Assembly: GCA_947500055.1 (NCBI GenBank)
Contig: CANMQO010000008.1
Span: forward strand, 186,001-250,000
Direction: 5' to 3'
From: an uncultured Paracoccaceae bacterium
GTDB lineage: Bacteria > Pseudomonadota > Alphaproteobacteria > Rhodobacterales > Rhodobacteraceae
DNA length: 64,000 nt
Shown here: piece by piece, positions 3,536-34,505 of the stretch
Numbering within the stretch: the first letter of the stretch is position 1
How the letters are laid out: the number at the start of each line of letters is the position of its first letter
Program-made: the position numbers and the translations under genes
Notes under the pieces: model-generated
What the model saw: only the letters and a program-made list of their open reading frames with translations
Told to the model about the DNA's origin: nothing
Database searches by the model: none

Positions 3536-4049
3536 GAACCTTACCAATATGTTTACATCCCAGACCAAGTTGATGTTTTGGTGGTCAGTTCACAAGGAAA
3601 AGGACGTTCGTACATCTCGCAGCATCCGTTACTCTTGGGCTCTTTCTGTGAGTCCGCTGCACCCGGCGCCAAAGTCCGCCATGCGGTTATCGGTGATCTT
3701 GGGTCTATGTCCTGACGTACAAGTCAAAGTCATCTGACATTCCACAAGACGGATAGCAACTCACATCTCCCACCGCACGCCCTGTTAAACGACCCCACCG
3801 TACGGTGGTGTCCGACGTTTTGCCGACGCATGGCCGACGTGATGCCGACCGCGTTTTTTGCCCCAAATGAGGCGTTAACCCATGACTCGCAGCAAAACGC
3901 ACGACCAGTTGAAACTTGGAGAGCACGCAACGCCCGTCCCAGACTGGTGAGACCGAAAAAACACCCTGCCCGGCTTTCGTGCAAATAAATGAAGAAATGC
4001 CCGCAACCGTCTGCTAATCTGACAAAAAAGCAAAAGCAGAGCAGGCAAA
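3536..4049. other. 514-nt divergent intergenic region holding a compound repeat element
   Basis: The region lies between the divergent HEAT-like gene and DUF484. It contains the perfect 14-nt palindrome CCACCGTACGGTGG (3795-3808) and, overlapping it, the compound repeat at 3784-3890 described separately. Short reading frames run through it in several directions but have no Shine-Dalgarno or protein-like composition. Nothing else is recognised. Confidence 0.55.
3784..3890 (+). repeat. Compound regulatory-type element, copy 1: four 11-nt phased CCGAC units plus TTAAC/GANTC block
   Basis: CCGAC cores start at 3812, 3823, 3834 and 3845, exactly 11 nt apart and all in the same orientation (TGCCGACG is the common core). 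TTAAACG lies 27 nt before the first core. TTAACCCATGACTCGC (3875-3890) lies 30 nt after the start of the last and contains a GANTC site (GACTC). The same arrangement recurs at 34219-34328. The spacing and orientation resemble binding arrays for OmpR/PhoB-family response regulators; that function is inferred. It lies about 160-270 nt upstream of the DUF484-xerC genes. Confidence 0.7.
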
Positions 4050-6410: not shown

Positions 6411-6507
6411 GTGCCATTCGGATGATGCTGGACAGCCATGGTGATTTGCCTGAGCCGACGACGTTCCGACGGGCATTTGGGTCCGATTTTCTTTTGCATC
6501 CCGGTAC

Positions 6508-34014: not shown

Positions 34015-34218
34015 ACATACCCGGACAACATCGCCACATGTCGGAGCGATATTATCAGGGTCCTGACCCTAACGTCAGTCGAAACGCATTTCACATTGCG
34101 GGATCGATTAAGCGGTCAATCGTGATGAGTACCGCATCCGGCAACTTGGGCTCCGACCGGGCATTGGTCAAAGCTGACCAATCCTTAACGCCGCCTTCAT
34201 CTTTGCACCGTCCGCTGC

Positions 34219-34328
34219 ATTAAACGGGGCATTTTGCGAAAACGGGTCCGACGTTTTGCCGACATGTCGCCGACGCTTTGCCGACAGCCATTTTTGGCCC
34301 CTATTCCCAGCATTAACACATGATTCGC
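34219..34328 (+). repeat. Compound regulatory-type element, copy 2
   Basis: CCGAC cores start at 34248, 34259, 34270 and 34281, again exactly 11 nt apart in one orientation. ATTAAACG lies 28 nt before the first and TTAACACATGATTCGC starts at 34313, 32 nt after the last. The final block matches copy 1 at 14 of 16 positions, including a GANTC site (GATTC). Outside these blocks the two copies differ, so the conserved parts look selected rather than simply duplicated. Confidence 0.7.
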
Positions 34329-34505
34329 GGTGATTGCCGAAACGGCGGCGTTGCGCGGCCCGGTGCAGGGCACCGAACGTTGCGCCCCCTGTCACAAAAC
34401 CGTCGTCAAAACGGCGCAGGCTGCCATCACCACGCGGATCAGATTCGCTCTGCTTCGCGGTCGCAGCAGGTGACGCTTCCCGTCACATATGTCACCGCAT
34501 GCGCT

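Follow-up and report, generated by a model that had tools for sequence, protein, structure and literature searches.

Two places in the window, the 64,000-nt stretch of DNA analysed here, carry four CCGAC words in an exact 11-nt phase, raising the question of which protein reads such an array and what the array is for. The preliminary description placed the units of copy 1 at 3812, 3823, 3834 and 3845, with TTAACCCATGACTCGC following at 3875-3890, and reported that the element recurs 30 kb away with the same spacing and block order but different filler. Both copies are confirmed in the sequence, the second with CCGAC x4 at 34248-34285 and TTAACACATGATTCGC at 34313-34328, and in both TTAAC-N4-GANTC begins 25-27 nt past the last CCGAC unit. 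The features of the two copies are as follows.

3771-3780, plus strand: copy 1 left block CACCGCACGC, read in the sequence and recurring in the genome alignment
3785-3788, plus strand: copy 1 left TTAA, 27 nt ahead of the array start, from the sequence and the composite alignment
3795-3808, no strand assigned: copy 1 palindrome CCACCGTACGGTGG adjoining the array, from the sequence; partly altered in the orthologue of the related genome G026
3812-3849, plus strand: copy 1 array of four CCGAC units in 11-nt phase, putative operator of a BrnA-like protein
3875-3879, plus strand: copy 1 right TTAAC, from the sequence and the composite spacing
3884-3888, no strand assigned: copy 1 GACTC (GANTC type), from the sequence and the composite spacing
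34206-34215, plus strand: copy 2 left block CACCGTCCGC, read in the sequence
34220-34223, plus strand: copy 2 left TTAA, 28 nt ahead of the array start, from the sequence and the composite spacing
34248-34285, plus strand: copy 2 array of four CCGAC units in 11-nt phase, from a pattern match
34313-34317, plus strand: copy 2 right TTAAC, read in the sequence
34322-34326, no strand assigned: copy 2 GATTC (GANTC type), read in the sequence
34371-34384, plus strand: copy 2 right end block CACCGAACGTTGCG, read in the sequence and recurring in the genome alignment

The window has seven CCGAC-N6-CCGAC pairs against 0.14 expected, and none of 100 shuffles reached seven; one of these pairs, at 6455, is isolated. 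The 16-mer block carries information only in the company of the array, since by itself it is not above chance (four occurrences with up to three mismatches against 5.5 expected). The palindrome at 3795-3808 reads CCTCGGTACGGAGG in G026, with one base pair changed on both sides and one pair broken.

The genome that holds the window, G000, comprises 3.97 Mb in 22 contigs. It has 127 matches to a three-unit CCGAC pattern and 60 exact matches to the four-unit pattern, and the reversed controls have none. Including near matches and the two window copies, 70 array places were collected and their flanks read; they derive from 79 rows, of which eight overlapping shifted ones and a second frame at C4:159080 were absorbed by merging; C1:755173, with one mismatch, was excluded, and C1:108023, with three units, was included. 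The earlier view of a phased, conserved element resembling a protein-binding site is thereby supported, with 70 places in the genome and not two. The same description knew of no named element of this form, and literature and Rfam searches likewise gave no name for such arrays. A full-text literature search, covering few subscription papers, found nothing on such arrays or on a BrnA-like protein in this group.

About half of the 70 places are a composite element whose parts stand at strict distances from one another. By loose criteria, downstream blocks accompany 56 of the places and are missing at 14, and a strict rule (a TTAAC-like block, then GANTC) gave 36 composite copies, or 34 when one more base was required. 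The left TTAA of these 34 copies starts at -28 in 29 cases and between -29 and -27 in 32, and the right TTAAC starts 26 nt past the array in 25 cases and 25-27 nt past it in 33. The gap from TTAAC to GANTC has two main lengths, 4 (26 of 34) and 12 (six of 34). Of 2557 window 75-mers, 9 show the downstream grammar, and 6 of 6382 positions show the two-sided grammar. Many of the G000 places also have the left block CACCGcrCGC and the right block CACCGAACGTTGCG, and the spacers vary between copies. GANTC is present in all 34 composite copies, and its middle base is T in 32, G in one and C in one, which leaves room for a motif that is not a methylation site. By eye, both orientations of the right module (GTGTTGCG...CCACCGaaCG) seem to be in use, with CACCGnnCGGTGGGGGTCACGCAAC read in other G000 copies. 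Another palindrome, approximately GTAAGRTGGRTC-N-GAYCCAYCTTAC, is repeated between genes in G000 and its congeners, and was seen at L036, L045 and the DUF484 upstream regions L407-L420.

The arrays show no promoter preference. They were sorted by gap type for 174 distinct arrays of several genomes, namely those outside predicted genes as called by a simple gene finder. The 64 composite arrays among them lie in 24 convergent, 34 tandem and six divergent gaps, and the other 110 in 23 convergent, 68 tandem and 15 divergent gaps, with four lacking a neighbour. When the genes that start toward an array within 300 nt were clustered, few families recurred; besides the BrnA-like family described below, a small number of them, ABC transporters for example, are found beside arrays across genera. 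Copy 1 had been proposed to control DUF484-xerC. The DUF484 gene was found in 40 of 40 genomes, and the element stands upstream of it in three of the 30 regions read by eye (G000, G026 and, in degenerate form, G005). With arrays in all gap types and so few DUF484 regions carrying one, the proposed link was removed.

The preliminary description also suggested binding by an OmpR/PhoB-family response regulator, which would control the genes next to the arrays. Head-to-tail sites in an 11-bp geometry are known for this family, as in the pho boxes of PhoB, and the direct repeats here have that geometry. Pho boxes are bound by their response regulator at promoters, however, and such a placement is not seen over the 174 arrays, which moreover co-occur with, and adjoin, the gene of a BrnA-like protein. 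A response regulator is therefore a very unlikely reader, and the evidence points to a ribbon-helix-helix (RHH) protein of the BrnA family instead. Loading of Rho at the spaced YC pairs was also dropped, because the orientation of the arrays to the left gene's transcript appears barely biased (they face it barely more than half the time).

An RNA element or a transcription terminator would suit the frequent position of the element beside 3' ends, including the 24 of 64 composite copies in convergent gaps, but the element gives no RNA-structure signal: the mean fold z over 36 copies is -0.14 on the plus strand and -0.72 on the minus strand. Rfam matches in the window at the gathering threshold number zero. 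On these two grounds such a role was rejected as extremely improbable, and with no folding signal the blocks look like protein sites on DNA.

The CCGAC word has a narrow distribution in the genus. Among 36 genus genomes the three-unit pattern counts 127, 177, 113 and 119 in G000, G012, G015 and G026, nine in each of G008, G023 and G030, and between 0 and 5 in the remaining 29. The preliminary description would have taken absence from other strains as evidence against a selected element. The CCGAC word is indeed nearly or wholly missing from 26 of the 36 genomes (no triplet or one), but in six of those 26 the element is present and is written with a different word. R1, a sequence model built from 28 copies of the composite, finds at least 72 copies in G000, at least 86 in G012, at least 84 in G015 and at least 80 in G026, against 0-6 in the other 36 congeners, with up to 86 candidates scored per genome. 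The best R1 matches in G011, G006, G019, G003, G017 and G004 represent this element, its array reading TGTACG or CATACG, the assignment of these loci to the six congeners resting on the order of the matches. YRTACG-N5 x3 occurs in 17 of 40 congeners, once in G012 and never in G000, G015 or G026, and the controls have none; with at most 14 matches in any one genome, the TACG word is not seen at the density of the CCGAC word. By eye, the array preceding one ABC-transporter gene is of the CCGAC type in G000 (L078) and of the TACG type in G033 (L573). Both flank blocks are found by the strict rule in only two of 28 TACG arrays.

Of 395 genomes in the wider family, 32 carry a four-unit CCGAC match; some of these matches are simple repeats, as in G178. 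G246 gave 33 matches to the reversed control, which led to a CAGCC x4 array at 11 nt, the word of a third lineage. The strict rule finds no flank blocks around the arrays of G246 (29), G118 (8) and G089 (5), so the composite layout is not general. A pattern scan of genome contigs had unrelated phyla among the matches listed, and the flanks of 39 loci that are Rhodobacterales-like by name were read. The arrays form a phased family with a fixed composite layout in the genus and a word that differs between lineages.

The DNA-binding family that adjoins arrays in G000, in Sedimentitalea (L153) and in G246, with its CAGCC arrays, matches Pfam BrnA_antitoxin. The PF14384 profile scores are 51.6, 50.7, 64.5 and 48.8 bits, with a cut-off of 26.1. 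The gene in G000 is outside the window:

C5:264177-264560: BrnA-family candidate gene of G000

A close orthologue of this protein (identity of 71-100% across 127 aa) is encoded in G000, G012, G015, G026, G008, G023 and G030; no such orthologue was found in the remaining 33 of the 40 congeners searched. These seven are exactly the genomes, of the 36 counted, that have nine or more CCGAC triplets, a ranking that has a chance of 1.2e-7 if genomes are independent, which they are not. Five others (G455, G018, G005, G033 and G022) have 2-5 element matches yet lack a close orthologue. Phased CCGAC units, two to four of them exact, start 78-79 nt before the protein match in seven of seven cases, and YRTACG is there in none. 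At 20 loci of more distant BrnA-like proteins the CCGAC array is never present, a YRTACG array is present in 11, and nine have neither. The Fisher p for the link of protein and word, uncorrected for relatedness, is 1e-6 for CCGAC and 0.02 for YRTACG. Since the array stands at a near-fixed distance ahead of its own gene, the BrnA-like protein very likely controls its own expression, presumably by autorepression. The available text of PMC11980606 describes a Brucella BrnA with a C-terminal RHH domain and autoregulation.

Like the BrnA antitoxins of BrnT-BrnA modules, the protein matches PF14384 above the Pfam cut-off. It differs from them in having dozens of dispersed phased arrays of several words, and no BrnT was recognised by eye among the ORFs around the G000 gene; one neighbour was scanned against profiles and matched no family. 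No relatives were found among viral contigs, plasmids and phages at the thresholds used, and a phage or plasmid origin of the protein was rejected on that result. A sequence search of the PDB found no solved relative, and a single-sequence model of the monomer is of too poor a quality to reveal an RHH fold (mean pLDDT 67.7, no strand).

The co-occurrence extends to the family, where the test covered 18 of the 30 genomes with a CCGAC match (besides G000 and G015), G246, and the first 30 genomes with zero matches. Homologues at E <= 1e-15 are present in eight of the nine tested genomes with at least ten CCGAC arrays, and all 30 zero-array genomes lack them. The eight are G089, G118, G194, G270, G308, G349, G407 and G422 (14-66 arrays), and homologues at this threshold are also found in G289, G296, G250 and G245 (2-5 arrays). 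There is no homologue match in G219 (10 arrays), G215 (3) or G109 (2), and G293, G360 and G178 have weak matches only. In the zero-array genomes the best E is 1.1e-12, with weaker BrnA-like matches in 11 of 30. Two or more phased CCGAC units adjoin 12 of 13 such homologue genes and the thirteenth (G270) has a related run, and in G246 it is CAGCC x4 that adjoins the BrnA-like gene.

A single residue of the protein also varies with the array. Eight proteins have Tyr in the predicted RHH strand (TLYLD or SLYLD), and A precedes CCGAC in every counted unit of their arrays. Seven have Arg or Leu at the same strand position, and there the preceding base is G, T or C, save for one A among 23 units in G349. 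This count comprises 15 proteins; the own-gene arrays of G270, G245 and G250, which have fewer than three exact units, were left uncounted. The Tyr proteins may be one clade, so the residue-base match is support and not proof. At the level of sequence comparison, word and BrnA-like protein are coupled in three ways: in their presence, in the position of the array beside the gene, and in this one residue. The word of the array follows the resident protein (CCGACG, TGTACG or CATACG, CAGCC), with phase and fourfold layout unchanged.

Taken as a whole, CCGAC x4 is probably the operator array of an orphan BrnA-family RHH protein, which would combine autocontrol with reading of arrays chromosome-wide. 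The protein is predicted to bind the four-unit array directly, with RHH dimers probably side by side on one helix face, one per 11-bp unit. About 70 further arrays sit between genes regardless of promoter direction. About half of them are part of the rigid composite of left TTAA at -28, array, TTAAC at +26, and GANTC 4 or 12 nt on. Since the arrays are blind to promoters and the composite is rigid, the BrnA-like protein is most likely a chromosome-wide DNA-structuring or boundary factor, and would not be a classical activator of the next gene.

The arrays could also be the internal part of a mobile or selfish interspersed repeat of the MITE, REP or CIR type. About 70 dispersed intergenic copies, a recurring right end, and copy numbers of at least 72 to at least 86 in four congeners against 0-6 in 36 would fit such a repeat. 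According to the available text of PMC2229807, the CIR repeats of Caulobacter and Brucella are long intergenic repeats with GANTC and inverted arms, their function being given there as undetermined. GANTC within a long intergenic repeat is shared with the element; in place of inverted arms the element has a phased direct array, and its fold z is near 0. The flank comparison took in 20 R1 sites with high scores from each of G026 and G015, eight arrays in a 400-kb part of G026, and the full set of 70 places in G000. Pairs of elements among G000, G015 and G026 share both flanks in 18 cases, the right only in 28 and the left only in four, which by hand count is about 14 distinct loci for right-only to two for left-only. 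Elements stay with the right-hand gene and the genomes differ on the left. In one case a 24-kb stretch of G026 genes lies immediately to the left of the element. All eight arrays in the 400 kb of G026 share at least one flank with a G000 element. Such shared positions, variable spacers and a word that follows the resident protein argue against a mobile repeat, which is an improbable explanation.

The orphan RHH protein as reader leaves room for a more specific role. The dispersed arrays may be replication-coupled landmarks, for segregation, nucleoid organisation or timing of methylation, with the protein acting as an RHH-type ParB-like factor on a centromere array. Such a function would narrow down the chromosome-wide role put forward above. 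On the strand that bears the word, local GC skew is negative at 40 of 56 sites in G000, 28 of 30 in G012, G015 and G026, and 24 of 30 in G246; minus-strand loci of G012, G015 and G026 were turned by their recorded strand, and two of the G246 rows are one site. GANTC together with TTAAC at a fixed spacing is also consistent with landmarks. Array orientation is biased but not strict, and strict replication polarity was rejected: array strands are mixed in G349, and in G089 they do not fit two replichores. The patchy occurrence in the family, and a ParA not having been noticed among the ORFs adjoining the G000 gene, also weigh against landmarks, which makes this role possible but rather doubtful. 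In the available text of PMC9499535, the RHH ParB of pSM19035 works only with four or more contiguous repeats. The likeness to that ParB-parS system would consist of the four array units and the BrnA-family RHH candidate, with binding predicted. The pSM19035 repeats are 7 bp long and lie at a plasmid parS, whereas the units here are 11 bp long and lie at about 70 chromosomal places. The fourfold array may thus be set beside parS as a parallel only, and no membership is claimed.

In its broadest form, the proposal is that an antitoxin-family RHH protein has been domesticated as a chromosome-wide landmark reader at some 70-80 rigid, non-promoter, replication-oriented intergenic elements. The 5-6-bp word of dozens of sites would have changed with the protein in separate lineages (CCGACG, TGTACG, CAGCC), with the 11-bp phase and fourfold layout kept. 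This is put forward tentatively, at somewhat below an even chance. If it is true, a chromosome-scale DNA-binding system has been built from an antitoxin-type protein, one that readily escapes notice, since close relatives have different target words. It would also be a natural experiment in which a regulator and dozens of its sites change code together, with matched protein-word pairs at hand. The alphaproteobacterial long intergenic GANTC repeats, to which the available text of PMC2229807 assigns no role, would gain one testable meaning.

Two further observations concern other BrnA-like genes. Short 11-nt phased arrays of different words occur with two of them, ATGCA x3 in G087 (L635) and TGCAC x3 in G076 (L643). 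In congeners with BrnA-like genes of group 2, the second gene is often about 6-11 kb from DUF484, an arrangement not seen in the window.
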